Shown piece by piece: positions 1-64,000 of a stretch of 64,000 bases of DNA. Below the pieces are notes generated by a model that was not told the origin of the DNA, did no database searches, and worked only from the letters and a program-made list of their open reading frames with translations. Made by a program: the position numbers and the translations under genes. Every line of letters starts with the position of its first letter. Within the stretch, counting starts at the first letter, position 1. Origin of the DNA: Bolinopsis microptera (taxonomy: Eukaryota > Ctenophora > Tentaculata > Lobata > Bolinopsidae); assembly GCF_026151205.1 (NCBI RefSeq), contig NC_087083.1, forward strand, positions 14,320,944-14,384,943, written 5' to 3'.

Positions 1-3000
1 CTAACGTGTACAATTGTCCGGCAGGTTCTCAGTGCCACTATTCCACCCTAACCTGTACAATTGTCCGGCAGGTTCTCAGTGCCACTATTCCACCCTAACC
101 TGTACAATTGTCCGGCAGGTTCTCAGTGCCACTATTCCACCCTAACGTGTACAATTGTCCGGCAGGTTCTCAGTGCCACTATTCCACCCTAACGTGTACT
201 ATTGTTCGGCAGGTTCTCAGTGCCACTATTCCACCCTAACGTGTACAATTGTCCGGCAGGTTCTCAGTGCCACTATTCCACCCTAACGTGTACAATTGTC
301 CGGCAGGTTCTCAGTGCCACTATTCCACCCTAACGTGTACTATTGTTCGGCAGGTTCTCAGTGCCACTATTCCACCCTAACGTGTACAATTGTCCGGCAG
401 GTTCTCAGTGCCACTATTCCACCCTAACGTGTACAATTGTCCGGCAGGTTCTCAGTGCCACTATTCCACCCTAACGTGTACAATTGTCCGGCAGGTTCTC
501 AGTGCCACTATTCCACCCTAACGTGTACAATTGTCCGGCAGGTTCTCAGTGCCACTATTCCACCCTAACGTGTACAATTGTCCGGCAGGTTCTCAGTGCC
601 ACTATTCCACCCTAACGTGTACAATTGTCCGGCAGGTTCTCAGTGCCACTATTCCACCCTAACGTGTACTATTGTCCGGCAGGTTCTCAGTGCCACTATT
701 CCACCCTAACGTGTACAATTGTCCGGCAGGTTCTCAGTGCCACTATTCCACCCTAACGTGTACAATTGTCCGGCAGGTTCTCAGTGCCACTATTCCACCC
801 TAACGTGTACAATTGTCCGGCAGGTTCTCAGTGCCACTATTCCACCCTAACGTGTACAATTGTCCGGCAGGTTCTCAGTGCCACTATTCCACCCTAACGT
901 GTACAATTGTCCGGCAGGTTCTCAGTGCCACTATTCCACCCTAACGTGTACAATTGTCCGGCAGGTTCTCAGTGCCACTATTCCACCCTAACGTGTACAA
1001 TTGTCCGGCAGGTTCTCAGTGCCACTATTCCACCCTAACGTGTACAATTGTCCGGCAGGTTCTCAGTGCCACTATTCCACCCTAACGTGTACAATTGTCC
1101 GGCAGGTTCTCAGTGCCACTATTCCACCCTAACGTGTACAATTGTCCGGCAGGTTCTCAGTGCCACTATTCCACCCTAACGTGTACAATTGTCCGGCAGG
1201 TTCTCAGTGCCACTATTCCACCCTAACGTGTACAATTGTCCGGCAGGTTCTCAGTGCCACTATTCCACCCTAACGTGTACAATTGTCCGGCAGGTTCTCA
1301 GTGCCACTATTCCACCCTAACGTGTACAATTGTCCGGCAGGTTCTCAGTGCCACTATTCCACCCTAACGTGTACAATTGTCCGGCAGGTTCTCAGTGCCA
1401 CTATTCCACCCTAACGTGTACAATTGTCCGGCAGGTTCTCAGTGCCACTATTCCACCCTAACGTGTACAATTGTCCGGCAGGTTCTCAGTGCCACTATTC
1501 CACCCTAACGTGTACAATTGTCCGGCAGGTTCTCAGTGCCACTATTCCACCCTAACGTGTACACTTGTCCGGCAGGTTCTCAGTGCCACTATTCCACCCT
1601 AACGTGTACAATTGTCCGGCAGGTTCTCAGTGCCACTATTCCACCCTAACGTGTACAATTGTCCGGCAGGTTCTCGGTGCCACTATTCCACCCTAACGTG
1701 TACAATTGTCCGGCAGGTTCTCAGTGCCACTATTCCACCCTAACGTGTACAATTGTCCGGCAGGTTCTCAGTGCCACTATTCCACCCTAACGTGTACAAT
1801 TGTCCGGCAGGTTCTCAGTGCCACTATTCCACCCTAACGTGTACAATTGTCCGGCAGGTTCTCAGTGCCACTATTCCACCCTAACGTGTACAATTGTCCG
1901 GCAGGTTCTCAGTGCCACTATTCCACCCTAACGTGTACAATTGTCCGGCAGGTTCTCAGTGCCACTATTCCACCCTAACGTGTACAATTGTCCGGCAGGT
2001 TCTCAGTGCCACTATTCCACCCTAACGTGTACAATTGTCCGGCAGGTTCTCAGTGCCACTATTCCACCCTAACGTGTACAATTGTCCGGCAGGTTCTCAG
2101 TGCCACTATTCCACCCTAACGTGTACAATTGTCCGGCAGGTTCTCAGTGCCACTATTCCACCCTAACGTGTACAATTGTCCGGCAGGTTCTCAGTGCCAC
2201 TATTCCACCCTAACGTGTACAATTGTCCGGCAGGTTCTCAGTGCCACTATTCCACCCTAACGTGTACAATTGTCCGGCAGGTTCTCAGTGCCACTATTCC
2301 ACCCTAACGTGTACAATTGTCCGGCAGGTTCTCAGTGCCACTATTCCACCCTAACGTGTACAATTGTCCGGCAGGTTCTCAGTGCCACTATTCCACCCTA
2401 ACGTGTACAATTGTCCGGCAGGTTCTCAGTGCCACTATTCCACCCTAACGTGTACAATTGTCCGGCAGGTTCTCAGTGCCACTATTCCACCCTAACGTGT
2501 ACAATTGTCCGGCAGGTTCTCAGTGCCACTATTCCACCCTAACGTGTACAATTGTCCGGCAGGTTCTCAGTGCCACTATTCCACCCTAACGTGTACAATT
2601 GTCCGGCAGGTTCTCAGTGCCACTATTCCACCCTAACGTGTACAATTGTCCGGCAGGTTCTCAGTGCCACTATTCCACCCTAACGTGTACAATTGTCCGG
2701 CAGGTTCTCAGTGCCACTATTCCACCCTAACGTGTACAATTGTCCGGCAGGTTCTCAGTGCCACTATTTCACCCTAACGTGTACAATTGTCCGGCAGGTT
2801 CTCAGTGCCACTATTCCACCCTAACGTGTACAATTGTCCGGCAGGTTCTCAGTGCCACTATTCCACCCTAACGTGTACAATTGTCCGGCAGGTTCTCAGT
2901 GCCACTATTCCACCCTAACGTGTACAATTGTCCGGCAGGTTCTCAGTGCCACTATTCCACCCTAACGTGTACAATTGTCCGGCAGGTTCTCAGTGCCACT

Positions 3001-3112
3001 ATTCCACCCTAACGTGTACAATTGTCCGGCAGGTTCTCAGTGCCACTATTCCACCCTAACGTGTACAATTGTCCGGCAGGTTCTCAGTGCCACTATTCCA
3101 CCCTAACGTGTA
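1..3112 (+). repeat. 47-bp minisatellite carrying the UBE2G2 3' splice site, at least 66 copies
   Basis: Near-perfect 47-bp tandem array that runs off the left edge of the window. Each unit contains TTCTCAG followed by TGCCACTATTCCACC and CTAACGTGTAC. These are the 3' splice site and the first 26 bases of the UBE2G2 exon that begins at 3088, encoding PLFHPNVY. The last copy passes without a break into the exon at 3113. Substitutions are rare: early copies with CCTGTAC, two with TACTATTGTTCGG near 197 and 338, and single changes near 1563, 1676 and 2768. The unit is not a multiple of three, and one of its three phases reads TAA, so upstream acceptor copies cannot give a normal protein. Confidence 0.97.
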
Positions 3113-3656
3113 CTCGTGCGGTAAGGTGTGTATCAGTATCCTACACCCACCTGGAGACGACCCCCTGGGCTACGAGCACTCTTCAGAGAGGTGGTCTCCT
3201 GTACAGAGTGTGGAGAAGATACTCCTCTCTGTTATCAGCATGTTGGGTTAGTACTTAGTTCCCTCAATATGATTTTAAATGTACTGTTCAATGCACTGTT
3301 CAATGTACTGTTCAATGTACTGTTCAATGTACTGTTAAATATATGCTATTTAATGTACTATTCAATGTACTGTTCAATGTACTAGAGTCAATGGATCCTG
3401 TAATGTGAACTGAATACAAGTTCTGATTTGTTCTGCTTTTTATGGATTGTAGTATTTGAGGTGTTACTGTTTAGGATTCACTGTAAGTAACCCGATTGTA
3501 CTAAATCTCCCACACTCTGATAATACCTCCCTATTTTCAGCTGAGCCGAACCCGGAAAGTGGGGCTAATGTTGACGCTTGTAAGATGTGGCGAGACAACA
3601 GGGACGGGTTCCTGAGGGAAGCTGATAAAGCTGTCAGACGTACTCTGGGACTCTGA
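3088..3656 (+). CDS. UBE2G2: Ubiquitin-conjugating enzyme E2 G2 (UBC7-type), last two coding exons
   Basis: Class E2 ubiquitin-conjugating enzyme of ER-associated degradation. It takes ubiquitin from E1 and passes it to RING E3 ligases at the ER membrane. Two exons are visible: 3088-3246 and 3541-3656. The first encodes FHPNVY, then [13 protein letters not shown], where the Cys is the catalytic thioester residue and the acidic insert after the HPN motif is diagnostic of the G subfamily, then [16 protein letters not shown]. The donor at 3247 (GTTAGT) splits an Ala codon that is completed after the acceptor TATTTTCAG at 3540. The last exon reads [18 protein letters not shown] and ends RRTLGL before TGA. 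The 5' exons lie left of the window, beyond the minisatellite. The first exon joins a prior exon in phase 1. SCG replaces the PDG expected before the RV/KV of the active-site strand, a small oddity. Confidence 0.93.
3279..3385 (+). repeat. 12-bp tandem repeat in the last UBE2G2 intron
   Basis: About eight imperfect copies of TACTGTTCAATG start some 30 bases after the donor at 3247. This array contains no exon sequence. Confidence 0.85.
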
Positions 3657-3750
3657 AGTTAGAAGTAGTACACGTGCAAACTGCGCCGCGCACAGACGTA
3701 CTCTTGGACTCTGAAGTTAGAAGTAGTACACGTGCAAACTGCGCCGCGCA
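3635..3750 (+). repeat. 58-bp tandem duplication across the UBE2G2 stop codon
   Basis: Two copies with a 58-bp period begin CAGACGTACTCT at 3635 and 3693. The first covers the last seven codons, the stop and the start of the 3' UTR. The second lies wholly in the UTR and differs by one base (GGG to TGG), so the protein end is preserved. Confidence 0.9.
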
Positions 3751-4619
3751 CAATGTCGCGTGTATTGTATGATTTCGTGCCAGTTTTGAGGAGGAGAAGA
3801 ATTCAAGAAAGATCGGATATGTGAGAAAACATCCCTCTTATCTGTGAACTACAAACATGATTATTAAATCACTGACATCGATTGGGCTTCATTTAAATGA
3901 CTTCGTTTAAGATACCTATTAAATTGTACAATTATATTGATTCGATAAGTAGCCATTACTATAAGATAAGCTGTAGAATTACGGAAATTATGTAGTTTTA
4001 AGCCACTAATTATCTTGTATGCGCTGGTTACTCATTTACTGATGTATTAGTGTAAAGTGTTGATTTAATGAATTACTGTGCTGTAGTCCGAATTTTCTTT
4101 GCTGCTAATTGAGTTTTCCTTAAATCTTATAATTTTCAAGTTGTGGTGCAAATTTATAATTCAAATCGGACTTGGTGTGTCATTAACTTTAGTCCAAATA
4201 TTATTGCGTGTTTTTGGTTCAGTTGTGGTTATCAAACTTTAGAACTCTGAATTTGAGTTCTCCAATCTCCATGTAAGTAATGTTAGTTATTGTCCGCGCT
4301 AACCTTCTTACCAACCCTAGGTATGGTTATATGATGAAGCCTCACTTATCAGGCGTTATTCACTGGAACTTCACACTGCTCAACTGAGAAACATTCCAAC
4401 TTTAAAGAATCGCTCCACCATTTCAGTGTCACTTGTATTTCAACTGAGAAATTCTCATTTTAGAAACTGAATAAAGACTATAACTTTGAATCAAATTGGT
4501 GTGGTCATTGGTGGTAAAGCATCTGTTTTGAGCGGAAGTTGTATACTAAAAAGAGAGGCTCGCCCAACATTTCATGTAAAAGATATCAGGCAGGGAAGTT
4601 GTCCAGTAACGTGTAAGAG
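3751..4619 (+). other. UBE2G2 3' UTR and intergenic spacer
   Basis: AT-rich sequence without a credible ORF. An AATAAA at 4470-4475 is a plausible poly(A) signal for UBE2G2. The start codon of the next gene lies only about 145 bp further on, so its promoter must lie in or near this spacer. Confidence 0.5.
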
Positions 4620-7600
4620 ATGGGCCTGATAAGTACAACACGGACTATAATGTACTGTATGGCAGCTGTTGTAACTACGGGGTGTGTCGGATTCACTGTT
4701 AACGCTTATATCCTCTACTTACTCAGGGTAACATAATAAGGACCAGTTAATTAAGTTAAGTGCTCCATATTCCGAACATGTATTTCTCAGTGTTCATAAT
4801 GTATGCGATGAACAAGCAGAAAAAGAACCGGATGATAAAATCCGTTTGAGGTTAACCTGTAATTGCTAGTAAAACTTTAAACGGGTTTAACTTCCTTTCG
4901 GTTCCTTATATTAGTGTAAATTTAGCAACTTTTTTACACTTTTTGGAAAGGTTGACCTGATGATTCCAAGGAACCACTGTACCAAACCTCAAGATCAGGA
5001 AGTGGCTGGTTTTCTCAACTAAGAAACCGAAAAATTTAACAATTTAGACCTGTTCCAGCTTTGTTAGTACTGACAGGTAAACCTCAAACTTTGGCGAGGA
5101 CCATCTCAGGAACGCAAGGCCAGATTTGAACCGGTTCTACTTGTTCGACTCCAGCAGCTGTTTCATATATAATATATGAAAACTGAAAATTTACGTTTTT
5201 GGTCTAGATAAGATAATAGTCTGGATAAAATCATTTTTATTATCAGAGACTCAAATTAAAAACCTCTCCTCCACCTCATCAACACCCCTTCAGGAGAATG
5301 TGAAACGACTAGAATTGGAGATAACCGCACTGAGACGTGAACTCACGCAGGTTGATGGTGACGTCACACGGTCATCACGTGACGTCACACGGTCATCACG
5401 TGACGTCACACGTGACAGAGCCTCTGATAGTGAGAGTGAGGATGAATTTCAGCTAGCTCTCGAGAGCATACCTTCACAAAGGTACCCAGCTTTGTTCATA
5501 GGTCCTGATATCTAAATTCCGCGATACATTCTATGATTTTAGCGTGTTTCTTTAATAAAACTATAATGTAAATAGTTTTCAGTTATTTTACTGCATCCAA
5601 TTTTCAGTATTATAGCCCAAGGAACGGACAGCCTGTGTACAGACAGACAGTGCGAGAGTGGCTTGTTAACACTGTGTCAGAGTATTGATAAGGATCACGA
5701 TACTCTCAAGTTAACGGAGCAAGGCTGTGAGCAAGGTCTTACTACACTCACACAACTTAATGATCAGGTAGGATACAGTGTTCCTTACACTCACACAACT
5801 AAATAACCAGGTAGGATACAGTGTTCCCTACACTCACACAACTAAATAACCAGGTAGGATACAGTATTCCCTATACACTCACACAACTTAATAACCAGGT
5901 AGGATACAGTGTTCCTTACACTCACACAACTAAATAACCAGGTAGGATACAGTGTTCCCTACACTCACACAACTAAATAACCAGGTAGAATACAGTGTTC
6001 CCTACACTCACACAACTTAATGATCAGGTAGGATACAGTGTTCCTTACACTCACACAACTAAATAACCAGGTAGAATACAGTGTTCCCTACACTCACACA
6101 ACTTAATGATCAGGTAGGATACAGTGTTCCCTACACTCACACAACTAAATAACCAGGTAGAATACAGTGTTCCCTACACTCACACAACTTAATGATCAGG
6201 TAGGATACAGTGTTCCCTACACTCACACAACTTAATGACCAGGTAGGATACAGTGTTCCTTACACTCACTCAACTTAATGACCAGGTAGGATACAGTGTT
6301 CCTTACACTCACTCAACTAAATAACCAGGTAGGATACAGTGTTCCTTACACTCACACAACTAAATAACCAGGTAGGATACAGTGTTCCTTACACTCACAC
6401 AACTTAATGATCAGGTAGGATACAGTGTTCCCTACACTCACACAACTTAATAACCAGGTAGGATACAGTGTTCCCTACACTCACACAACTAAATAACCAG
6501 GTAGGATACAGTGTTCCTTACACTCACACAACTAAATAACCAGGTAGGATACAGTGTTCCTTACACTCACACAACTTAATGATCAGGTAGGATACAGTGT
6601 TCCCTACACTCACACAACTTAATGATCAGGTAAGATACAGTGTTCCTTACACTCACTCAACTTAATGATCAGGTAGGATACAGTGTTCCCTACACTCACA
6701 CAACTTAATGATCAGGTAGGATACAGTGTTCCTTACACTCACACAACTTAATGATCAGGTAGGATACAGTGTTCCCTACACTCACACAACTTAATGATCA
6801 GGTAGGATACAGTGTTCCCTACACTCACACAACTTAATAACCAGGTAGGATACAGTGTTCCTTACACTCACTCAACTTAATGATCAGGTAGGATACAGTG
6901 TTCCTTACACTCACTCAACTTGATGACCAGGTAAGATACAGTGTTCCTTACACTCACTCAACTTAATGACCAGGTAAGATACAGTGTTCCTTACACTCAC
7001 ACAACTAAATAACCAGGTAGGATACAGTGTTCCTTACACTCACACAACTTAATGATCAGGTAGGATACAGTGTTCCCTACACTCACACAACTAAATAACC
7101 AGGTAGGATACAGTGTTCCCTACACTCACACAACTAAATAACCAGGTAGGATACAGTGTTCCCTACACTCACACAACTAAATAACCAGGTAGGATACAGT
7201 GTTCCTTACACTCACACAACTTAATGATCAGGTAGGATACAGTGTTCCCTACACTCACACAACTAAATAACCAGGTAGGATACAGTGTTCCTTACACTCA
7301 CACAACTAAATAACCAGGTAGGATACAGTGTTCCCTACACTCACACAACTTAATAACCAGGTAGGATACAGTGTTCCCTACACTCACACAACTTAATGAC
7401 CAGGTAGGATACAGTGTTCCCATATTATTTATTAAGGAAATGTTTGAAGTTTTATTACTAAACTAATTAATTTGAATCAGTAACCAGTAGTCACTTATTA
7501 ACCAGGAGTCACAAAGTAAGCATGAATCACTAAGTAACCAGGAGTCACTAAGTAACCAGTAGCTCAGGTCACTAAGTAACCAGTGGGGGGGGTACCAATG

Positions 7601-10600
7601 GCATAAATGGCATAATGGAGAATTGGCCAAGCAAAATTTCCATTTATGCCATGAAATTTCTATGCCATTTGACGATTTTTATGCCATTTGACGATTTTTA
7701 TGCCATTTGTCTCCATTTTATGCCATTCGAAATATGAAATTTTAAAACTTTGAACTGAGAATTTAATAACGAATAGTCTGCACTACACTAGTACTGTCCA
7801 CCTTTATCTCTATTTATTGTACTAGTACAACATTTATTTTCACCCATTAAATTCCTCAAAATATCCCTAGCAATGGGCATTATTGATTATAATGACGTTC
7901 AATTATGTATATCAATATGATATGAGAATTTGGTTGATAGTGGACAAGTGACCGGGCAGTATGGCATAGTACACGCTACACACCATATAACAGAGAGGAC
8001 AGTCGACTGAATGCTCCGAGTCAATCGAATATCCAAATTAACAGTGGAAAACTGTAACAGAGAGGCTGGGCCTGGTTGGCCCACGAGAGGATAGCATATG
8101 GATGCTTTGCCTACCTCTGGGGTATGACAGTCCTGTGGGAGTTTGCCAGTGGAATCAAGATGTTTAATCAAGGATGATGGTAAGTGTTGTGGGGTGTGTC
8201 ATAGATAAACGCTTAAGTGGTGGTTGAGTGTGGAAGAGAGAGGCGGAATAAGACGGCGTTAAAGTAGTCGCTATGTTACACCTGTCTGGTCCAACTCCTC
8301 CGGCACCACTAAGCGTTTAGTGTGGTTTGTAAAGTTGACAATGGTGGAGATGTGTTGGTTGTCGAATATGTCATTGACAGAGAGGTAGTAGTCCCGGAAA
8401 TATTGACCTCTTATTTGTGCAATAGCCGGGCACTGTCCGAGAAAGTGTGAGACAGTCTCCTCTCCGTCGCCGCATTAAGGACAAGCACTTGTGTCTGATT
8501 TGCGAATGGTGTGTAGGTGTTTGTTGAGGCCACAATGTCCCGTGATGAGGTGCACTGCAGTTCTGTAATTTTGTCTGTTGTTACCGAGTGTAGTGTTGAG
8601 ATTTTTGATGATGTTGATGTTTTTATGTCCAAGTGTCAGTTTAGTGTGTCTGGGACCATCAGTAATCCATGATTCTTGATTAAGTTTTGTGACTTTGTCG
8701 TTGATCAGGCGTTTGATGTAAGATTGTGGTATTGGGCAATTCAAAGTGGATTCACTGGTTGTGCCTTTTTTGGCCAGCTCGTCTGCTTTTTCATTACCCC
8801 ACAATCCGATGTGTGCTGCTATCCATCTGATTTCTAAGGTGTTAGTGGATCCGAGTGTATTGAGGGTGTCGTAACAGTCTCTAGTAGTTCTACTCCTCGT
8901 TGAAGGTGAGGATATAGCTTGAATAGAGGAGAGACTGTCCATATGATGATATGTGTGTTTTTGTAAGTTGATAGATATTTACAAGCTTCGATGATGGCAG
9001 TGAGTTCTGTTTGATAAACGGTGCAATAATCGGGAAGCTTGAATGATCTTTCATCTAGTGTAGTGTTGTTGTTGTCTGTGGTGATAATATAACCAGCCCC
9101 GCTACCTGAGTCTGTGCTTGACCCGTCTGTGTAGCAGGTGATGGTTTCACTGGGGATGTTGTCGATGGTGTTTTGGAGTGAGCCTCTATATTCGATGTTG
9201 TCAGCTCCAGGAGTGGTGACCGTGAAGCGTCGTTCAAGCATCTTGGTTGGTATAGATAGGTCTCTCTCTGCTTTGGGTGGTATGTTGAGGTCTACCATGA
9301 ATTGTTTGTTGATAGTGGTGTGAGTTGTGATGGTACCTTTTCTGGGGGCGATAGTTTCGAGGGTTAGGCTTTCGTAGGCTTGAAGCCTGGCTGTGCCCTT
9401 GCTGCCTCACCTCTCAGGAAAAGTATGATATCTGGAGTGTTAGTGAGGTGGTTCAGTGCGATGAAGGGAGTACTAGGCATGGCACCAGACATCATTCTCA
9501 ATGCCAATGCCTGAACTCGTTTGAACTTCCTCGCGTTGGTGTCTGTTTGGGTTGCCCTAATCCATATACTACAGCAGTATGATAGAATAGGTCTGATGAC
9601 AGCGGTGTACATCCATTTGCATGTTTTAGGGCTCATACCCCAAGTGGGGCCGACAGCTCTTCTACATTGCATAAGGGATGCCGTAGCTTTTTTGGTGGTA
9701 TTGGTGATATGTTCATTGAAATTGAGCTTGCTGTCGAGGGTCACTCCTAGGAATTTGGCAGATCTGGATAGACCTATAGTGGTGTTACCCACCACCACAG
9801 GTCTAAGTGTCCATTTCTTATTCCAGGTAAACATGACTATTTGTGTTTTGAGTGCGCTTATGGATAGATCTTTGGTTTGGCACCATTTTTCTATTGTGTT
9901 GATGGTTTTGCGTGTTCTGTTCCAGATGATATCTAAATCATTCCCCTCCGCTAGAGAAAGCAGATCATCTGCAAAAGCTTGCAGATAACCTGGTATGTCT
10001 CTTGCGGTGTAGGCCAGGAGATCATCGACTACCAGGTTCCAAAGGAAAGGGGAAAGGATGCCACCTTGGGGGCACCCGCTCCGGATCCGAACCCTTTTCG
10101 ACTTATCCTTATGATTTAATGTGATGAATCTGTTAGTTACCATGTTGATAATCCATTTTGCTGTGGCCGGATCCACTTTCGTGGTCTTGATAGCGTCAGA
10201 AATAGCCTTGAAAGAGACATTATCAAAAGCTCCCTCTATATCTAGAAAGACTCCTAAGACATATCCCTTCTTAGCTATCCTGCGCTCGATGGTGTGAGTA
10301 ACTTTATGAAGGGCTGCTTCGGGTGAACATCCCTTCTTAAAGCCAAATTGTCGTTTGTTGATGTCTTTAGCGTGTTGCATATGCCACAGTATCGCCTTCT
10401 CCTGTAGTTTTAATATCACAGGAGAAAGGGTGATAGTGCGAAATGATTTCGGTTGGTTGTAGTCAGTTTTTCCAGGCTTTGGGAGAAAGATTCCAAGGGA
10501 TTCTTTCCACAAAGTTGGAATGTGTCGGGTTTCATGATTTTTTGTCATAATGGTTCTGGTGATGTCTTTGATGTGTGTCCAAGCTTTCTGTATGATGATA

Positions 10601-13600
10601 GGTTTGAGGGTGTCGGGTCCAGCAGCTTTCAACGGATCAAAGGATTTAAGAGCCTCCTCGATTCTGTCTGGGCTGTAGATGGTATTGAGTAAGGTGGTGG
10701 TGATTGGTAGAGGTCCAGGTGGAGGCACTGGCGGGTCAGTGACACTATTCTTGAAGTGGGTTTGTGTCATGACCTCCAGTGTCTCCTCTGCATTTTTGGT
10801 GATGTCTCCGTTTGGTTTGTAAACGGCTTCTAGTGTGTGCTTGTTGTCGTTGCAGGATTTCAGAATCTTGTTCATCCTTCCGGAACCGTGTCGGGACCGT
10901 GTTCATGTTGAAGCTTTTAAAATTTAAACATTTTCATAAGATTGATAATGATCTGTAAACATGTTTCGAATGGGTAGCCTCTTAAAAATAATATTCATTG
11001 ATATCTCGATGAACCTGTATATAAGTATTACATAACAGTTCACCAAATGACCTGAAATACTTGCTTCCTATTATACAAAATGATGATGACATAATATATT
11101 GCTTAAATAACGCTGGACAGGGCGTCGAGGGACTGCATTTGAGAAGGGAAAAGAAATAATTTCCCTGTGTTCGCCGCAGTCGCAGATCCCGAAGAACAGA
11201 GTGGGAAGCCAATCGTCCATGGCCAAGTACTTTCTTGGGAAGCTGTAGATGATGAAGCTGGATGCCTCGAGGATGAGGACGACTTAGCTTATGAGGTAGA
11301 ACCTGGAGTTGATGATTGTGATGTTGGAGAAACGATATCAACAGATAAATATGGAACACTTTCCTTCCGGTCTTTTGAGACACTCACGCTCAATGGAGGA
11401 AGAAGCACTTTATCAACAAAATCTCGTCTTTCAAGATTCAAGGGGAACGCGTTTGGAGTGTCTTCTGATGTTCGCATATACAATCAACCTGAATGCGGAT
11501 GTTCAACAGTTTTGAAAGCTGGCAGTACAGAAACTCTTAAAGTCTTCAAATCTCAGCAGGACTTTGCAACAGGAGTGGTTAGATTTATTTCTTATAAGTC
11601 ATGCCCGATGAAGTACTACTGCCAGGAACATAGCCTAATCAATGGATCTCCTAATGTTTGGCTACTCGTCGAAGACAAATACATCAGATGCATTGTTCCT
11701 TGATGACATTCAAAATCGTTGTGTTGTCAATGTTTGTATTCTGTACATTTTGAACATCTCACAATTTGCTTTTCTTGAATAGTGAAATGTTTGGTATATA
11801 TTTGATATAATACATTTCTATTTTCTTTATTTAGTTATTTGTCATATGAATCTTTGACTTTAACGATCATTCCAAGCGTTATAAAGCATGAAACATGTCT
11901 CTTATTCAAGTACTAATAATATTTGCGAATCTAAAGTCATCCTAAAGGTCAAATATGAAGACCTAAATTCATGGCATAAATTGGCATAAATGGAGAATTG
12001 GCCAAGCTAAATTTCCATTTATGCCATGAAATTTCTATGCCATTTGACGATTTTTATGCCATTTGTCTCCATTTTATGCCATTGGTACCCCCCCTAACCA
12101 GTGCAGGAGTCACTAAGTAACCAGGAGTCGCTAAGTAACCAGGAGTCACTAAGTAACCAGGAGTCACTTAGTAACCAGTAGTTCAGGTCACTAAGTAACC
12201 AGGAGTCACTAAGTAACCAGAGGTCACTAAGTAACCATGAGTCACAAAGACGTAACCATGAGTCACTAAGTAACCATGAGTCACTAAGTAACCATGAGTC
12301 ACTAAGTAACCATGAGTCACTAAGTAACCAGGAGTCACTAAGTAACCAGGAGTCACTAAGTAACCAGAGGTCACTAAGTAACCACGAGTCACTAAGTAAC
12401 CATGAGTCACTAAGTAACCATGAGTCACTAAGTAACCGTATCTCCCCCAGACACCAGACACCCCACAACTAATGTGGAGGCTCGCTAGAATAATGTACGA
12501 GAAAGCAAAACACAACACTAAAGCGGGAGTAAACGCCCAGAAAGGACTGTTAGAGGCACTCGCTATTGCAAAGAAAGTAAATCATATTAATTTGCTTTTT
12601 TGCTCATCCTGATTTTCTTATTTGATTTTTGTTTGGGTCTGTGATCTTGAACTGAATATGTACCAGTAGCAAACGACACAAATGTTGGTAGTTTCAACTT
12701 ATAACAATATACAATTTGTATTTACTGTTAAATGTAATATTATGTTGAGCAATGGCAGGGTGAAGAGTTGAGTGAAGGGAACTCTAAGAGCCACCTGTGG
12801 TACGCTATCCTACTGGGTGACACGTGTAAATATGACGATACGCGCGTTAAACTGACCAAGGGTTTAGAATTTGAGAAGCAGGTGAAACTCTCGCTGGATA
12901 TTGATCCCTACAATTCTACTGCGCTGCATCTGATCGGGAGATACTGTTTCGAGGTGACATTCTGTAATTTCTTTTCTTTCTTCTTTTCAATAAAGCATTT
13001 TTAAATTATTATAATTTGCGCACTCATGTTATTGTACCTAATACAATAATACATTCGTTTCTTCGGGCTACGCGTGATAATTCCTGACAGCTTGCTGGAG
13101 GGAATTTTCGGTCTGAAGTAATACCTTCGGTTCCGGTTCCTTGCGGGAAAAATCTGCAAATTATCAGCTCTCAGTGTTGACGAGTTTTAGTGCATATAAT
13201 TCCCGGAAATAGTTATAACCCTTTACTGTCAGGTATCAGGTATAAAACCCTTTACTGTCAGGTATCAGGTATAAAACCCTTTACTTTCAGGTATCAGGTA
13301 TAAAACCCTTTACTGTCAGGTATCAGGTATAAAACCCTTTACTGTCAGGTATCAGGTATAAAACCCTTTACTGTCAAGTATCAGGTATAAAACCCTTTAC
13401 TGTCAGGTATCAGGTATAAAACCCTTTACTGTCAGGTATCAGGTATAAAACCCTTTACTGTCAGGTATCAGGTATAAAACCCTTTACTGTCAGGTATCAG
13501 GTATAAAACCCTTTACTGTCAAGTATCAGGTATAAAACCCTTTACTGTCAAGTATCAGGTATAAAACCCTTTACTGTCAGGTATCAGGTATAAAACCCTT

Positions 13601-14765
13601 TACTGTCAGGTATCAGGTATAAAACCCTTTACTGTCAGGTATCAGGTATAAAACCCTTTACTGTCAGGTATCAGGTATAAAACCCTTTACTGTCAGGTTT
13701 CAGGTATAAAACCCTTTACTGTCAGGTATCAGGTATAAAACCCTTTACTGTCAAGTATCAGGTATAAAACCCTTTACTGTCAGGTATCAGGTATAAAACC
13801 CTTTACTGTCAGGTATCAGGTATAAAACCCTTTACTGTCAGGTATCAGGTATAAAACCCTTTACTGTCAGGTATCAGGTATAAAACCCTTTACTGTCAGG
13901 TATCAGGTATAAAACCCTTTACTGTCAGGTATCAGGTATAAAACCCTTTACTGTCAGGTATCAGGTATAAAGTGGTGGGAAGCTAAGATAGCAGCTACTT
14001 TGTTCGGGTGTGTACCTCAGTCTACCTATGATGAGGCCCTGCAATACTTCCTCCGTGCTGATGAGATTAATAGTGAGTGGATGGAGAACTCTCTCTTCAT
14101 TGCTAAGGTAACTTATATTGGGTTAATTATTTATTTAGTTGATTGGTTACTTAATTCAGTAACTGAATACTCAGTTAATTGTTTAGTAGGGTAATTGTCA
14201 TTGAAACTTCTCCATTCTACTTTAAAACCATTTAAATTTCTGTGAGGAATTTATTTCGTAATTTTTGTTCAAGAAAATTTGTTCCGCGAAATTGATTGCT
14301 CGTGACTTGATTCTTCGTTGAATCATTTAAATTTTGAATTTGCGAAAATTTAAACCGCGAGGAAGATAAAATGTCCGCGGTAAAATTGGTTTTACAGTAT
14401 CATGTACTTCTTTCTTGATATATTGATAGTAATATACGACATACGTGACATCTTGAGAAAAATACGTATCTCCTACGTTGATAGAAGATTACGTTTTACG
14501 TGAAACATTTCAATTTCCAGTGTTTGATTGCCCTGAAAAGGAATGAAGAAGCTAAATCTTGGTTGGATAGAGTTGATTTGAAACAGGTAATTTTAAGCAA
14601 AATCAATTGTCATCAGTTGTACTGAATCTACAATATTGGAATCTAAGATATCAGATATTTAAAGCTCGAACAGTTGTTTTAACTTTACAGTGATAATTAA
14701 ATCGTTGTCAGGGGGCAGAACACGAACTTCAAGCTCAAATAACAGACTTGAAAAAGAAGTTGTAA
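4620..14765 (+). CDS. RMDN: Regulator of microtubule dynamics (RMDN) family protein, eight exons
   Basis: Exons 4620-4727, 5294-5481, 5608-5767, 12451-12576, 12759-12963, 13965-14107, 14521-14586 and 14712-14765 join in frame (1050 nt, 349 aa). Exon 1 starts MGLISTTRT and encodes one hydrophobic segment (about residues 11-34), a probable N-terminal membrane anchor as in RMDN2/3. Exon 2 encodes a short coiled coil ([13 protein letters not shown]) and an acidic tract, [14 protein letters not shown]. The helical repeat domain follows: [70 protein letters not shown]. Family members are TPR-like proteins at mitochondria or ER contacts. Exon 5 could instead end at 12953 with exon 6 from 13973; I prefer 12963/13965 because it keeps six residues the family has between CF and WW. 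Introns 3 and 5 contain large minisatellites. Confidence 0.87.
5360..5413 (+). repeat. 21-bp in-frame repeat inside RMDN exon 2
   Basis: Two and a half copies of a 21-mer beginning GACGTCACACGG encode DVTRSSR twice, then DVTR. Each junction forms TGACGTCA, the CRE palindrome. The period keeps the reading frame. Confidence 0.92.
5743..7411 (+). repeat. 43-bp minisatellite carrying the RMDN exon 3 splice donor, about 38 copies
   Basis: The first copy is the real exon end: ACACTCACACAACTTAATG, then ATCAG and the donor GTAGGATACAG at 5768. About 38 further copies follow, each with about 24 exon bases plus the donor. Two main variants alternate (CTTAATGATCAG and CTAAATAACCAG), with some GTAAGATA or GTAGAATA donors. 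One unit near 5870 is 2 bp longer. Read-through past the true donor meets TAA in the first unit. Confidence 0.95.
8475..10875 (-). pseudogene. 5'-truncated non-LTR retrotransposon, reverse transcriptase plus RNase H, frameshifted
   Basis: The 503-codon stretch 9364-10875 (-) is a reverse transcriptase. It shows [45 protein letters not shown] and [10 protein letters not shown], where the FADD pair binds metal. A frameshift near 9375 leads into the next frame, which holds an RNase H domain: [27 protein letters not shown], then after a second shift near 8945 [10 protein letters not shown] and [19 protein letters not shown]. The RT-RNase H layout suits the I/Jockey/R1 group. No endonuclease domain precedes 10875, so the copy is 5' truncated. 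It is dead by two frameshifts. A 3' tail probably extends to about 7900. Confidence 0.9.
11167..11703 (+). CDS. Unrecognised ORF (178 codons) carried by the composite element
   Basis: Open frame ending in TGA at 11701-11703. It starts with no ATG, and TTCGCCGCAG just before 11180 could be an acceptor, so it may be a terminal exon. The first third is acidic ([20 protein letters not shown]). The rest is Ser/Thr-rich, then has [15 protein letters not shown] and [11 protein letters not shown] with several Cys, ending YIRCIVP. The Cys spacing suggests an extracellular fold, but I do not recognise the family. It could be a captured host exon or an element gene. The length and balanced composition make chance less likely, but expression is not shown. 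Confidence 0.4.
   Translation: MFAAVADPEEQSGKPIVHGQVLSWEAVDDEAGCLEDEDDLAYEVEPGVDDCDVGETISTDKYGTLSFRSFETLTLNGGRSTLSTKSRLSRFKGNAFGVSSDVRIYNQPECGCSTVLKAGSTETLKVFKSQQDFATGVVRFISYKSCPMKYYCQEHSLINGSPNVWLLVEDKYIRCIVP
13214..13971 (+). repeat. 29-bp minisatellite carrying the RMDN exon 6 acceptor, about 26 copies
   Basis: Unit CCCTTTACTGTCAGGTATCA plus GGTATAAAA. The last copy supplies the acceptor TATCAG at 13964 and the first seven exon bases GTATAAA, then diverges into GTGGTGGGAAG of exon 6. Occasional variants are CTGTCAAG and GGTTTCAGG. Splicing to the preceding copy would read GTA TAA and stop. Confidence 0.93.
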
Positions 14766-15678
14766 CTGAAGAAGCAATCTTGAAAATAGTGTGTACTGAC
14801 TGTAAAAACAGTGGATATCAGACTGGCGAAGATAATTGGATAAAGCATAGGGAATGTTTTACTTAATTCTTTATCTAGCAAAAAGATGGTTTATATCACT
14901 ATTTATGTGTAAAGAAACAGCGAAGTTGAGTTCCCCATGTAATATTTTTAATTATGTACTAGCTATAATAGTGATCGTTTGTAATTTATCTGCAGATATG
15001 GACAAAGTTAGTCTCTTAATAGCCGATATTTATTCGTATTACACTGAAGTTATTTATAGCATATTGAATAAATTAAACCAAGTAATGTTTGTATATTACT
15101 CTCCAAATATTATAATAAACAACTTTGCAATTCATGCTTCGGAATCCAAAAAATACCTGGGCAAAACTCAGGAACCCGTTCATTCAGCATGCCTATTTTC
15201 AGACTTCCTTCATCATAAGAATACATGATACATATGGAGCTGCTGTAGAACTAGAGTCCATGTAACCCATCAACTGCCCCACTTGGCCCCTTGTAGGTTT
15301 ATAACCTACCAAGACGTGCGCCGATTTAAACTCGTTGACGGATGATACCGAACGTGCTAAATCACTTTACAGTCGATAGATTGGAGATTTTTCTAAAACA
15401 TGAAAGTTGAAACATCTCTGACATCTGAACTTCTGAATCGATGTATTTTCGAATGCTGATTATCGGTATCCAATCAATCATGATCAGGTTGTCATCTCCT
15501 CAGTAGCGCCTTACTTGATGAGATTGAGTGGCCGGATCACTGATTAAGTGCAGAGATCACGTATCCGATGGATTTTGAAATGGTCATAACTCCGCCAAAT
15601 TTTGAACAATGAACTTGAAACTTTGGAAAAGGTTTTAAATTATCAAGCCAAATGTGTGCAACATTTTGAGTTCCTAGC
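14766..15678 (+). other. RMDN 3' region and convergent intergenic spacer
   Basis: Sequence between RMDN (+) and the BTB-like gene (-), which converge. An AATAAA at 15067-15072 could end the RMDN transcript. A frame at 14854-15228 has no family signal and is low-complexity hydrophobic, so I do not call it a gene. Confidence 0.45.
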
Positions 15679-17016
15679 TTAAAGCGTTCTCATTTTATGA
15701 AGACAATAATGAAAAAAAGGGAGTGTTACCAGGTTCTGTACACTGTGATATATAATTGCCGGGTGTTTAAAAGAAAAGTGATAATTGTAAACAGTGCCTG
15801 ATGGTAAACTTTCATCTCTGTTGAAGAAATGTTTCAATGAACTGATTACTTTCTTTCCAATACCTGGAGAATCGGTAATCTCCTTATCTGCATTTAGGAT
15901 AACATTCTCATGATAACTAGAAAGCTGATTGTTATTGATTATTTCATTTAACACTGAAATAAGCTCAAATCTCTGCGATAAAGGAGAGTAGTTTAAGGTA
16001 TGTATCATCATATCCACGTACTGCTTTGGGACCTTTTGGATGTGTTTGTCTCTGCAGCTTGTTTCCAAGATTTTAATAAATGTTTCTGTTTCTTCCGTGG
16101 TTGGAGGATTTTGGTAGAAAACTCCAACCAGCGTATCAACAACTTTAAACATGGATGTGATGATGTTCCTTGCAATCAAATCTGTCAAACTGTTCATTGT
16201 TTCACACCTGTTCCACAAATCAATGTTTTTATCACTGTTGTACACCTGATCTGTAGTCCTTTCCTTTGTGTTCGTGCTACGGGAACTAGCTGATTTAATT
16301 GCCTCCGTAGTCAGTTTAAACGCATATTTCATATCCTCTGCTGAAATATTCAACAAATCTTGTATCTTCTCGCACATCTCTAAAAACTGATCTTTATTTT
16401 GCTTCCAGCAAAGTGTGAGATCCATTCGGCTTAGAAGATACTTACTGTTTTTATCCAGGATTTTACTGTTTTCCAAGTTCATTAAAACTATTCGAAGGAA
16501 AAGTTTAGTATTACATCCTCCAAGAACCAACATGAGATCAATCTGAACAACGTCTAATTTACCCAACTCTGTCATGTACTGCAACACGAATGAATTGTTG
16601 TCCCTACCAGAAAACCTGCACATAAAACCGTTCATTAAATCATGCTGCTCCCACTTGTTCCTTATATAGAGGGACTCCTCAAAAGCAAATAACTTCTCCT
16701 CATCCGTCACAGCTTTCTCCATCCTGCATTCCAGCCATTCCTTTAGTTCCTTCACCAGCCACACCACCTCGAACACGTGACCTAACTTGTGTTGCTCCCT
16801 GAACTGAGCGGTCTCCAAATCTCCCACACTCTTATCGTCCAATAATGTAACAAATAATGTTACACTCACAGGGTTGAAGTCTTCCAGGTCTAGCTCATCG
16901 TAATTCAGTTCCTCTATCAGGTAGCGGAACATTCGGCTGTCTTCCGTTAATCTCTGTTTGGAGACATTCAGCGGGTCTCCGTCCTTCAGCTTTATGATTA
17001 TTGTTTCTTCGTTCAT
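15679..17016 (-). CDS. Intronless BTB/POZ-like protein (445 aa)
   Basis: Single open frame from ATG at 17016. Residues 5-95 resemble a BTB/POZ fold: IIIKLKDGDPLNVSKQRL, then SRMFRYLIEEL, a DFNPVSVTLFVTLLDD stretch where BTB proteins have the Phe/Leu-rich helix, and FEVVWLVKELKEWLECRM. The rest (about 100-400) is helical, Leu/Lys/Asn-rich and could be a BACK-like extension. I see no Kelch, zinc-finger or MATH domain. BTB domains dimerise and often recruit cullin-3, but that role is not shown here. The lack of introns contrasts with its neighbours and could mean a retrocopy or a lineage-specific expanded family. The last 40 residues (KHPAIIYHSVQNLVTL) have no obvious homology. Confidence 0.75.
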   Translation of the reverse strand: MNEETIIIKLKDGDPLNVSKQRLTEDSRMFRYLIEELNYDELDLEDFNPVSVTLFVTLLDDKSVGDLETAQFREQHKLGHVFEVVWLVKELKEWLECRMEKAVTDEEKLFAFEESLYIRNKWEQHDLMNGFMCRFSGRDNNSFVLQYMTELGKLDVVQIDLMLVLGGCNTKLFLRIVLMNLENSKILDKNSKYLLSRMDLTLCWKQNKDQFLEMCEKIQDLLNISAEDMKYAFKLTTEAIKSASSRSTNTKERTTDQVYNSDKNIDLWNRCETMNSLTDLIARNIITSMFKVVDTLVGVFYQNPPTTEETETFIKILETSCRDKHIQKVPKQYVDMMIHTLNYSPLSQRFELISVLNEIINNNQLSSYHENVILNADKEITDSPGIGKKVISSLKHFFNRDESLPSGTVYNYHFSFKHPAIIYHSVQNLVTLPFFHYCLHKMRTL

Positions 17017-17810
17017 TTTAATGTTGATCTAAAAGAAAATGTAATATCATGTTTAAATTGGCTTTATCATGTTCATTGTTATGTTCACTCTAGCATATAC
17101 AATATACCCTGGTAATACCAACGTACCAACGATATAAAACATTCGTGCGGTATGTAAATGTAATATAGAAGGCTTGTTGGAGATACTGTAAGTGTATTAT
17201 TCAATTGCAGTTCAATTTCACATATATTAAAATTGGAAAAAATCGTTTAGAAACTTTTACCCGGAACAGTACTACGTCTTGAAGCGAGCCAAGAGCCTAG
17301 AATTAAGTATCAGGTAACAGCACAAATTGTAAGATCAACGCGGAGAGAAACAAAGGTATGTGAAGATAAACCAACTGAAACTCAAAGCTCTGAGTCTGTG
17401 CGATGATCTCACAGAATGTAACGGTGGGTTAGTCACATTGGTTGGTCACTGGTCACGTGCGTGTTATATGATACTGTACCATCGCTCTACCTTCAGCTAT
17501 TCACGGATAAGATCCAAATAAGATTTGTTTTATCTGCGGCGCGGCTCCCTTTTTCGTCCTGTTAGATAACTTTTAAATGAAATCATCGTTAAACCTAATT
17601 TATTATCTCTGTTCGCGTGGTAAGAATAATTTACAATTTTATCAGAGTATGCAGTATGGCGCTGGCATACACTTTTGAAGGCATACTATACTGGCTGGCA
17701 GCCCCCTTTGAAATTCCAATCTTACATCGAAATCGAAACAATATAATAGGAATGACTTGAAAACTATTGGAGATGAAGATTCCGAATATATAATGAACAG
17801 TTGAACAGAG
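17017..17810. other. Spacer upstream of the BTB-like gene
   Basis: AT-rich non-coding sequence of about 800 bp. It must hold the BTB-like promoter (-) and any promoter for the small ORF at 17811 (+). No TATA box stands out and no transposon ends are visible. Confidence 0.4.
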
Positions 17811-17972
17811 ATGACCGACGACATCTGCAATATGTACTCCACCGCCATAAGGGGTGCTATTGCCAACAGTGATACCTTCACCAACGTTAAGGCCGATTGT
17901 GGGGATTTCAACGGGGCTTCTGGATTCGGCTTCAGTGCTCTTCTGGTGACGATCATGTGCATCTTGTACTAA
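17811..17972 (+). CDS. Possible small ORF or terminal exon (53 codons)
   Basis: ATG at 17811 to TAA at 17970. It begins MTDDICNMYSTAIRG, has a second Cys in KADCGDFNGASG, and ends with a hydrophobic tail FSALLVTIMCILY. A Gly/Ala/Ser stretch followed by a hydrophobic end looks like a GPI-attachment signal or a tail anchor. A TGA lies three codons upstream in frame, so translation starts here, or this is a last exon joined at ACAG just before 17809. It is intact but short, and chance cannot be excluded. Confidence 0.35.
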   Translation: MTDDICNMYSTAIRGAIANSDTFTNVKADCGDFNGASGFGFSALLVTIMCILY

Positions 17973-18076
17973 GCTCTAAGAAGGAACATTCGAAATGCTT
18001 AGGCCGACACTAATTAATTATGCTATTAAGGGAATAAGGAGTATAAGTATAACTCCACTTTTGACCTATTCGACGG

Positions 18077-18439
18077 GGCTCTTACTAATTCGCTCGCCCA
18101 AAAATTTCACGTGACTTTGGTTTTTATGGTTTTGCAGCCGTACAAAACGGTTTTACATAAACCCTAATCCTAACCATAACCCCGAAGCTAACCATAACCC
18201 TTACCACAACCCTAACCCTAACCCGGGCCCTAAACAATCGAATTCGTATTTTACTAGCCTGTCACGTGACCAAAACGGTTTTTTGCCCATAACTCTCCAG
18301 GGAAGCATTTTAACCCTACGTCATGGGGGGTGATTCGGAATCAGCGTCCAAAAATACACCGATCCAGATCACTTTCATGCCCAAAGGGCCTTTTCACAAG
18401 AATTTTCTTAAAATTTGGGCGAGCGATTTAGTAGGAGCG
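18077..18439. mobile_element. 363-bp MITE with 9-bp target duplication
   Basis: ATTCGACGG flanks both sides (18068-18076 and 18440-18448). The ends are imperfect inverted repeats of about 25-30 bp: GGCTCTTACTAATTCGCTCG against the complement of the right end, CGCTCCTACTAAATCGCTCG, both continuing CCCAAA. The 9-bp duplication suggests Mutator-type mobilisation. The interior holds a degenerate CCCTAA/CCATAA run (about 18160-18235). Confidence 0.82.
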
Positions 18440-18448
18440 ATTCGACGG

Positions 18449-19346
18449 CCACTTATTACATATTAATACTGCATGTTTTACAATTTTTTTTGCTAGCCTT
18501 AGTAGATTTCCATACTGATGCCGTTTGAGGTTCTGATGACCACGCCCTTCGGTGACCACGCCCAACTCAAGATTGGTAAATCGTAGAAAATTCGAAGAAC
18601 CATATTTATGTGTTTGGGGGACTTCGCCGCTTCGACTCGTCGCGCAAACTAGCATTCTTGCTTCGCAGAGCAACGATCCCGATGGGTTGACACCGTCAAA
18701 TTCAATCAATTATGTGTTTGATGATCTTAGATTTGATCTATTTGTAACCATTTATTAATTTTAACATGTAAGATGATTAAAGTTGCTGAATTTATTGAAT
18801 AAGATTGAAAATGTATAGCTATAACATCAAACAACATGGATCACATAATACCTCCAATAAATACACCTACAACTCTGTAAAGAAGAAATATTGCCCATCA
18901 CAATTAAGCGCGCAGTGTGTTTTGTATATTTTAGTTGTCATATTGTTGTATATAGTAGTATACACTTTGTATGTAGTTCAACTTCAAGCAACTTCCTCGA
19001 CTGATGCCCTTTACAAAATAATAAATATACTCATTTTATCATAAAAATAGTATTAAAATCAGCTAAGCAACTAATAGGAGATTGAAAGGCTGTAAGTCAG
19101 TTAGAAGACGATATTTGGTGACTACAAGTTGTGGATTCTCTGTTTATTATATTAATTAATACCACTATTATACACTATTATACAATTACTCAGGAATGAG
19201 GAAGTAAACCTACACGTAGCTAGAGAAAATATCATTTTATAGTATCGACTATAAATAATCGAACGTCTTCTAACTGACTTTTCAACTAAAATTTCAATCG
19301 ACCGATGAAGACACAATACGTACCACGTAACATGTATAAATGTATT
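18449..19346. other. Intergenic, no gene recognised
   Basis: AT-rich sequence. A segment at 18614-18690 (ACTTCGCCGCTTCGACTCG, then ATTCTTGCTTCGCA) has a diverged relative at 31050-31115 in an ABCC intron, so it is probably a dispersed repeat. Confidence 0.4.
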
Positions 19347-19540
19347 CCTGTCACCAAGATGTAATCAGATCGAACGCATAAATTAGATCGAACCGGTTTG
19401 ATCTAGGAATTAGATCGAACGCTGGCGCGAGATACATATACAAATACATTGAAAGCCGCGCCGCGCGTTCGATCTAATTACTAGATCGAACCGGTTCGAT
19501 CTAATTTCTGCGTTCGATCTAATTACATCTTGGTGACAGG
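19347..19540. mobile_element. 194-bp palindromic MITE
   Basis: The ends are inverted: CCTGTCACCAAGATGTAAT and ATTACATCTTGGTGACAGG. Inside, TTAGATCGAAC and GTTCGATCTAA motifs repeat, including AGATCGAACCGGTTCGATCT. No clear target duplication is seen. Half of the same element recurs inverted at 50046-50157. Confidence 0.85.
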
Positions 19541-19984
19541 AACTGACACCAAGATATTATAAACATAATGTACAATGTATATGAAGCACTGAAGCAGCAT
19601 GGCAAATGTGGAGGACTGTCTGTTAACATGAAATAAGTTTCATCTGGGGAGCCTATCTGTAATCTGTAGGTTTAAATTGTTATAAGTTAAATAACTCTGG
19701 GATATGTCTATAAGGTTTCATACAATAATTCATAAAAAAGGGTCGCTACTAAAATCTGTATCCAATCATTAACAGTTTCTTAATTGGAAATCTGCAGTGG
19801 GGTCACAGGACTTTAGATTTCCATACTGATGCCTCGCAAAACTGTCATACTATCAACTAAACGCACTATTATTTAACTAGTTCAGCCTTATAACTATACC
19901 TAAAATCATAACCTAGTATTTAACGGAACTTAAAGCAGTAACACAAAGTACAAATAAATATATTTCAGTGGATTACTGACACGA
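19541..19984. other. ABCC 3' flank
   Basis: Non-coding sequence just past the ABCC stop (the gene is on the minus strand), expected to hold its 3' UTR. No clear poly(A) signal was picked. Confidence 0.4.
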
Positions 19985-61316
<41,332 letters not shown>

Positions 61317-61322
61317 CTATAG

Positions 61323-61911: not shown

Positions 61912-64000
61912 CAGTATAAACTACTTTATAGTTTTAGTATAAACTACTATTTCAACTTTATAGATTTAGTATAAACTACTATTTCAACTTTATAGTTTTA
62001 GTATAAACTACAATAACTTTATAGATTTAGTATAAACTACTATAACTTTATAGTTTTAGTATAAACTACAATAACTTTATAGATTTAGTATAAACTACAA
62101 TAACTTTATAGATTTAGTATAAACTACTATAACTTTATAGTTTTAGTATAAACTACTATAACTTTATAGTTTTAGTATAAACTACAATAACTTTATAGAT
62201 TTAGTATAAACTACAATAACTTTATAGATTTAGTATAAACTACTATAACTTTATAGTTTTAGTATAAACTACTATAACTTTATAGTTTTAGTATAAACTA
62301 CAATAACTTTATAGTTTTAGTATAAACTACTATAACTTTATAGATTTAGTATAAACTACTATAACTTTATAGTTTTAGTATAAACTACTATAACTTTATA
62401 GTTTTAGTATAAACTACAATAACTTTATAGATTTAGTATAAACTACAATAACTTTATAGATTTAGTATAAACTACTATAACTTTATAGTTTTAGTATAAA
62501 CTACTATAACTTTATAGTTTTAGTATAAACTACAATAACTTTATAGTTTTAGTATAAACTACAATAACTTTATAGATTTAGTATAAACTACTATAACTTT
62601 ATAGTTTTAGTATAAACTACTATAACTTTATAGTTTTAGTATAAACTACAATAACTTTATAGATTTAGTATAAACTACTATAACTTTATAGTTTTAGTAT
62701 AAACTACTATAACTTTATAGTTTTAGTATAAACTACAATAACTTTATAGTTTTAGTATAAACTACTATAACTTTATAGTTTTAGTATAAACTACTATTTC
62801 AACTTTATAGTTTTAGTATAAACTACAATAACTTTATAGATTTAGTATAAACTACTATAACTTTATAGTTTTAGTATAAACTACAATAACTTTATAGATT
62901 TAGTATAAACTACAATAACTTTATAGATTTAGTATAAACTACTATAACTTTATAGTTTTAGTATAAACTCCTATAACTTTATAGTTTTAGTATAAACTAC
63001 AATAACTTTATAGATTTAGTATAAACTACTATAACTTTATAGATTTAGTATAAACTACAATAACTTTATAGATTTAGTATAAACTACAATAACTTTATAG
63101 ATTTAGTATAAACTACAATAACTTTATAGATTTAGTATAAACTACAATAACTTTATAGATTTAGTATAAACTACTATAACTTTATAGTTTTAGTATAAAC
63201 TACAATAACTTTATAGATTTAGTATAAACTACTATAACTTTATAGTTTTAGTATAAACTACAATAACTTTATAGATTTAGTATAAACTACAATAACTTTA
63301 TAGATTTAGTATAAACTACAATAACTTTATAGATTTAGTATAAACTACTATAACTTTATAGTTTTAGTATAAACTACTATAACTTTATAGTTTTAGTATA
63401 AACTACTATTTCAACTTTATAGATTTAGTATAAACTACTATTTCAACTTTATAGTTTTAGTATAAACTACAATAACTTTATAGATTTAGTATAAACTACT
63501 ATAACTTTATAGTTTTAGTATAAACTACAATAACTTTATAGATTTAGTATAAACTACAATAACTTTATAGATTTAGTATAAACTACTATAACTTTATAGT
63601 TTTAGTATAAACTACTATAACTTTATAGTTTTAGTATAAACTACAATAACTTTATAGATTTAGTATAAACTACAATAACTTTATAGATTTAGTATAAACT
63701 ACTATAACTTTATAGTTTTAGTATAAACTACTATAACTTTATAGTTTTAGTATAAACTACAATAACTTTATAGTTTTAGTATAAACTACTATAACTTTAT
63801 AGATTTAGTATAAACTACTATAACTTTATAGTTTTAGTATAAACTACTATAACTTTATAGTTTTAGTATAAACTACAATAACTTTATAGATTTAGTATAA
63901 ACTACAATAACTTTATAGATTTAGTATAAACTACTATAACTTTATAGTTTTAGTATAAACTACTATAACTTTATAGTTTTAGTATAAACTACAATAACTT
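61912..64000 (-). repeat. 29-bp minisatellite running off the right edge, about 72 copies
   Basis: Plus-strand unit ACTTTATAGTTTTAGTATAA followed by ACTACAATA or ACTACTATA, with GATTTAG/GTTTTAG variants and a few longer CTATTTCAACT units. It lies in the ABCC intron upstream of exon 61316. Whether it carries a splice site cannot be judged because the next exon is outside. Confidence 0.95.

Follow-up and report, generated by a model that had tools for sequence, protein, structure and literature searches.

Genes and tandem arrays in the window

We analysed a window of 64000 bases from Bolinopsis (C12:14320944-14384943), taken from an assembly of 264.65 Mb in 232 contigs, 97.5% of which lies in thirteen contigs of 15-26 Mb, the next contig being of 0.2 Mb. 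Three genes were modelled from the letters of the window: a UBE2G2-like gene (protein match, E 2.7e-41), an RMDN-family gene (E 1.1e-24; Pfam RMD1-3) and an ABCC/MRP-like gene. The ABCC exons from 53958 downward gave a protein match of E 1e-191 and the upstream exons, located in the flank stretches L006/L007, one of E 9.9e-84. The linker exons between them (~61.3-54.4 kb), which bear the edges of the 20-mer and 42-mer arrays described below, are absent from the E 1e-191 match and were called by open frame and splice consensus; taken alone, they gave a weak, collinear match to ABCC2 (E 0.025). The ABCC model has a frame break between 54429 and 53958, where an exon is probably missing. Arrays were located by TRF and exon edges were taken from the gene models read off the sequence. 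The exons and arrays concerned were as follows.

1..3113, + strand: 47-bp array at the UBE2G2-like acceptor 3080; 74 copies; unit of 13 intron and 34 exon bases
3080..3246, + strand: UBE2G2-like exon (protein match, gene model)
5608..5767, + strand: RMDN-family exon (protein match, Pfam)
5742..7421, + strand: 43-bp array at RMDN donor 5767; 39 copies; unit of 26 exon and 17 intron bases
13217..13971, + strand: 29-bp array at RMDN acceptor 13958; 26 copies; 14 exon bases
13958..14107, + strand: RMDN-family exon (protein match, gene model)
20547..30384, - strand: 41-bp array at ABCC donor 30359 (...EGGSNLS); 222 copies; 26 exon bases
37381..38484, - strand: distal part of the 63-bp array, in the intron shared with 42295-43531 (TRF)
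38485-42294, - strand: LINE with a long open frame (38900-42310) and RVT_1 and endonuclease domains (Pfam)
42295..43531, - strand: 63-bp array at ABCC donor 43520 (...FGETLIG); 12 exon bases
43594..43702, - strand: 35-bp array at acceptor 43610 of the exon ending at 43520; three copies; 17 exon bases
44127..44537, - strand: 34-bp array at ABCC acceptor 44132; 12 copies; 6 exon bases
53257..53350, - strand: 51-bp duplication across ABCC donor 53307; two copies; 44 exon bases
54466..57813, - strand: 42-bp array at ABCC acceptor 54486 (linker exon); 80 copies; 21 exon bases
58178..59356, - strand: 20-bp array at ABCC donor 59348 (linker exon); 59 copies (TRF); 9 exon bases
61320-61825: 14-mer array abutting an ABCC edge, without exon bases
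61923..64000, continuing to L006:2932, - strand: 29-bp array abutting the ABCC donor after ...LEQG, without exon bases

The first-pass annotation of this DNA had described ten exon edges in three genes at which a tandem array carries the junction itself, and both TRF and the gene models bore this out: at each of the ten, the array crosses the junction and its copies lie on the intron side. The units are 20-63 bp long and span the splice site together with 6-44 exon bases. The exon-side edges of the arrays agree with the protein matches for UBE2G2, RMDN and ABCC, and two of the ten array-bearing edges (20-mer and 42-mer) sit in exons with weak protein support. The large 29-mer and the 14-mer beyond 61 kb in the window fall outside this description, since both abut ABCC edges and carry no exon bases. 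With the flanks L006 and L007, which contribute a 59-mer and a 40-mer, both at ABCC acceptors, junction arrays occupy five donors and seven acceptors.

Together the ten arrays in the window cover 22868 of the 64000 bases (36%). The 41-bp array nearly fills its intron (9812/9873 bases, inserted fragments counted), and the 42-bp and 20-bp arrays take 3327/3527 and 1170/1248 intron bases, respectively. The 47-bp array starts 366 bp upstream of the window (flank L005:9635), and the 63-bp array is split into two parts by the LINE. One fragment, which we take to resemble a retroelement 3' end, was found three times inside the 41-mer array (20660-20870, 23875 and 25000); it was perhaps inserted once and then multiplied along with the array.

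Several further features were observed in the window. A telomere-like ACCCTT array at 30650-30855 begins at an ABCC donor (CAG followed by GTACCCTT). RMDN intron 2 holds a second retroelement at 8475-10902, with reverse-transcriptase-like frames on the - strand (by eye), bordered by an 18-mer on one side and a 19-bp repeat on the other. Two open frames had no Pfam match: one of 169 aa (46157-46666, + strand) inside an intron of ABCC, which itself lies on the - strand, and one of 449 aa (15679-17028, - strand) between RMDN and ABCC.

Frequency of edge crossing in the window and elsewhere

We compared how many arrays cross an exon edge with the number expected from random seeds within each intron, using a crossing probability of 2(u-1)/(L0+u-1) for a duplication of length u touching an intron of length L0. 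L0 was set to the present intron minus the array plus one unit, so that the null treats present remainders as ancestral lengths. These remainders are approximate: edges are off by at least 1 base for the UBE2G2 47 and the ABCC 59, 17 and 19 arrays, and there is uncertainty over the ABCC 36 edges and over the ABCC 17 acceptor. The count drops arrays of <3 copies, of period <17 and in introns with unmodelled edges (most of L005). Across window and flanks, an edge was crossed by 11/16 arrays where 4.7 were expected (P 5e-4; the pattern had been the reason for choosing this window, which inflates the value). Adding 11 arrays embedded in other elements gave 11/27 (P 1e-3). A variant count of 12/17 included the two-copy 51-mer but no other two-copy arrays, and 11/16 is the fairer version. 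Among arrays of at least 10 copies, 10/13 cross an edge (3.8 expected), or 10/14 with the 18-mer at 12104 included.

Beyond the window the picture was different. Arrays in the flanks alone, which lay outside the DNA given to the first-pass annotation, crossed an edge in 2/6 cases, as expected (2.0). An outside sample of 223 kb, neither random nor large, comprised six random 10-kb stretches, one E2 locus and myosin gene loci, with exons located by homology or by eye. It held 24 arrays (at least 2.9 copies, period at least 20), of which four cross an edge, two of them firmly, and 17 show no visible crossing. The four are listed here.

Stretch L003: 63-mer, Pfam-supported exon
Stretch L055: 40-mer x 22, Pfam-supported exon
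Stretch L022: 31-mer, open frame and donor only
Stretch L040: 29-mer, open frame and donor only

The exons in L022 and L040 gave no family match above the cut-off, and that in L022 had no PDB match either. Expressed as 4/21, the outside count omits two arrays judged coding by open frame (L021 and L044) and one ambiguous array (L013); the myosin-intron model, unlike the open-frame call, places the L021 array in an intron with a weak donor. On these figures the window and flanks differ from the outside sample (11/16 against 4/21, P 0.006). None of 25 modelled myosin introns, a set biased to short introns, had a crossing array, and all eight arrays found there are intron-internal. Splice motifs were not visibly enriched in array units elsewhere, as examined without gene models. 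Junction arrays thus recur in the genome, yet a general preference for junctions is not demonstrated.

These counts bear on the proposal, also made in the first-pass annotation, that duplication is recurrently started at exon-intron boundaries, and they do not support it as a property of this genome. A bias of duplication or, likelier, of expansion towards splice junctions, for instance owing to co-transcriptional structures or to junction breakage, would account for the excess in window and flanks and for that among arrays of at least 10 copies. The selection of the window for its pattern, the chance-level flanks, the low count elsewhere, the myosin introns and the units without motif enrichment all speak against it, and we regard such a bias as unlikely, if worth weighing. 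It is quite unlikely, too, that junction-containing units outgrow or outlast other intronic units, such that splice sites themselves make minisatellites grow and introns lengthen in particular genes, e.g. ABCC.

Copy sequence, sister copy and unit diversity

In ten arrays, eight from the window and two from the flanks, GT or AG is intact in 583/587 copies (collected at up to 22% mismatch). The exon-side copy equals the array consensus in the 47-, 29-, 42- and 59-mer arrays and differs from it in the 43-, 20-, 63-, 41-, 34- and 40-mer arrays; in the 43-bp RMDN array, for example, the exon-side copy reads QLNDQ against QLNNQ in the consensus. With end copies left out, variable columns numbered 1/20 for the splice dinucleotide, 19/86 for the nearby splice site, 34/190 for the exon part and 22/122 for the intron part. 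No constraint on the repeat copies was detectable, as all comparisons between column classes were nonsignificant (P 0.11-1.0). Accordingly, few independent mutations underlie the near-perfect conservation of the splice dinucleotide.

Selection on the repeated splice sites, as spare sites, decoys or splicing regulators, is a very improbable explanation of the arrays. The 583 intact copies would suit it, as would the 41-, 42- and 40-mer arrays, in which exon parts differ at 0.0-0.1% of positions and intron parts at 1.4-6.9%. However, the exon parts of the 43-mer and 20-mer arrays are more variable than their intron parts, and AG, kept in 22 of the 26 copies of the 29-bp RMDN acceptor array, is lost in the other four. 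In a larger sample, dinucleotide retention at this level might prove constraint.

A sister copy of part of the locus, L057 (C12:14872500-14880900), borders on an assembly gap and aligns with parts of the window between 44.2 and 53.7 kb. Over 3733 aligned positions, it has 99 differences from window 44.5-48.4 kb and may be the other haplotype or a paralogue. At donor 53307, L057 has a single edge, in which CAG is followed directly by GTCTTT, whereas the window carries this edge twice, at a distance of 51 bp: GTAATACTGAT follows the exon-side copy and the GTCTTT intron follows the outer one. Translation continued past the exon-side copy hits a stop immediately, so the exon-side donor is needed for the full protein. 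The extra 51 bp can be divided into 42 duplicated and 9 filler bases, seven of the latter repeating AATACTG of the nearby exon. Because L057 is without the 51-bp copy, the junction duplications look recent. The extra copy is probably a gain in the window, though it may instead have been lost from L057. The founder copy had been described as the real exon edge, with array copies on the intron side only. The placement of copies stands at all ten edges; for the 51-mer, however, the original donor would now be the intron-side copy if the L057 state is the older.

L057 also lacks a 104-base piece in which the 97-bp intronic duplication at window 47190-47389 has its second copy, and it shares the 34-mer array at acceptor 44132, which there lies close to the assembly gap. 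Separately, window segments 48396-49666 and 50262-52935, which resemble long palindromic insertions, had no match in L057.

Nine junction arrays were tested, and in five the array span equals whole units plus 1-3 bp, an excess expected if repair leaves little overlap. The remainder was 15-43 bp in the other 4/9, reaching at least 30 in three, and the figure of 15 for the 20-mer is blurred by a one-base deletion. Remainders of 15-43 bp are unexplained by simple duplication with little overlap.

The ten units share little sequence, the longest word common to any two being 10 bases. We searched the genome with eight units (the 41-mer was outside the query set), using a tool that skips very common words. 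All 150 listed of 533 matches fall in these same arrays; the listed matches cover four units (63, 47, 43 and 42), and the other four units are not among them. The 34-mer unit occurs once more, in L057. The earlier view that the arrays do not belong to a single element family is therefore upheld.

Two origins were considered in the light of these comparisons. Introns could have originated when an exonic AG/GT segment was duplicated in tandem (Rogers model), so that the array is the new intron, and several introns are indeed nearly all array. A unit's intron part would then be homologous to the opposite exon edge, but 7/8 arrays tested share only chance words with that edge, and the eighth is borderline (a 6-base word, P 0.05). 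Moreover, 98 to 8462 intron bases remain beside the array, one unit included, and we consider intron birth highly improbable. The Drosophila cases of intron gain in PMC2891723 are similar in that the duplicated segment carries a splice motif; the segment is coding there, whereas the units studied here straddle a junction that already existed, and the exon edge on the far side of the intron is unrelated to them. A transposon or introner family targeting splice sites, suggested by the many affected introns in the window, would place one unit across many unrelated introns, and can be given next to no credence, as every edge has a unit of different length and sequence carrying its own exon edge and the listed genome matches stay within these arrays.

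Relation to mirage minisatellites and proposed origin

According to the first-pass annotation, no described class fits these arrays. This was wrong, as exon-intron-spanning tandem repeats are known from amphioxus as "mirage" minisatellites (PMC3087553, citing a 2002 paper). Mirages were named in Adh3 and are also reported in the globins BflGb6 and BflGb9, PGBD5 and troponin C, where they apparently leave splicing undisturbed (PMC3087553 and PMC3902484). Units there are of 10-72 bp in Adh3 and 150-160 bp in the globins, with 3-6 copies in BflGb6 (PMC3087553). The present arrays fit the anatomical definition of mirages: they span exon-intron boundaries at donors and acceptors, 5' or 3', with unit lengths that vary by locus. 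As in amphioxus, many copies carry AG/GT, and the authentic edge appears to lie outside the repeats. They differ in their comb jelly host, in size (up to 222 copies over 9.8 kb, against 3-6 in BflGb6), in the presence of ten edges in one window and in the filling of whole introns by some arrays. A literature search on ctenophores and minisatellites returned nothing apparently related, judged by titles and abstract starts. New here are the host, the size of the arrays, their number per gene and the comparison copy that lacks one duplication.

We favour an explanation in which mirage-type minisatellites arise by an unspecific process and are sorted by survival (probability about 0.62). Break repair would make tandem duplications of 20-60 bp with a few bases of overlap or short filler, as the one comparison case, L057, suggests. 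Small tandem duplications at double-strand breaks, made by Pol alpha-primase with CST or by Pol theta, are described for mouse and human cells in PMC8355091. Those duplications are likewise tandem, <100 bp and with little overlap at the joints; they were demonstrated in cells, whereas ours are deduced from the assembled genome only.

Duplications wholly within coding exons would mostly be lost unless in frame, and those inside introns or across a boundary would be retained. A junction-spanning duplication would provide two usable splice sites, of which the exon-side one gives the normal message. If that site is used, every additional copy falls within the intron, and the exon edge will invariably resemble the founder. 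Unequal exchange and slippage may subsequently extend the array, possibly until it fills the intron, a step that we infer from the homogeneity of the arrays, their high copy number and the one fragment multiplied inside one of them. The copies themselves would be functionless.

Repeats at other positions in genes also bear on this explanation. Two are in the window.

3635..3752, + strand: 58-bp duplication across the UBE2G2 stop codon, with the second copy behind the stop (TRF)
5358..5412, + strand: 21-bp in-frame coding repeat in an RMDN exon (DVTRSSR), 2.6 copies

A third, at L044:1217-2198, is a 27-bp repeat x 36 that is apparently coding, in frame directly after an acceptor and between two myosin exons (read by eye). 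The existence of in-frame coding repeats and of a duplication across a stop codon fits a survival filter rather than a splice-specific process. The idea that duplications copying the splice site survive had been offered in the first-pass annotation as an alternative, and it is the one that fits best. The counts in the flanks and in the outside sample also favour sorting by survival; the strong excess in window and flanks, and its difference from the outside sample, count against it, as do the remainders of 15-43 bp and, should a larger sample reveal constraint, the 583 intact GT or AG copies.

The presence of mirages in Bolinopsis extends their range far beyond lancelets, and rather than a lancelet oddity they may be something that tandem duplication generally produces in animals. 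They may also offer a simple way for introns to reach many kilobases harmlessly. The arrays supply spare splice sites at large scale, from which intron sliding or new exons could start, and gene annotation is easily misled by them, since every copy resembles an exon edge. Finally, the comparison with L057 indicates that it is possible to observe events of this kind while only two copies exist.
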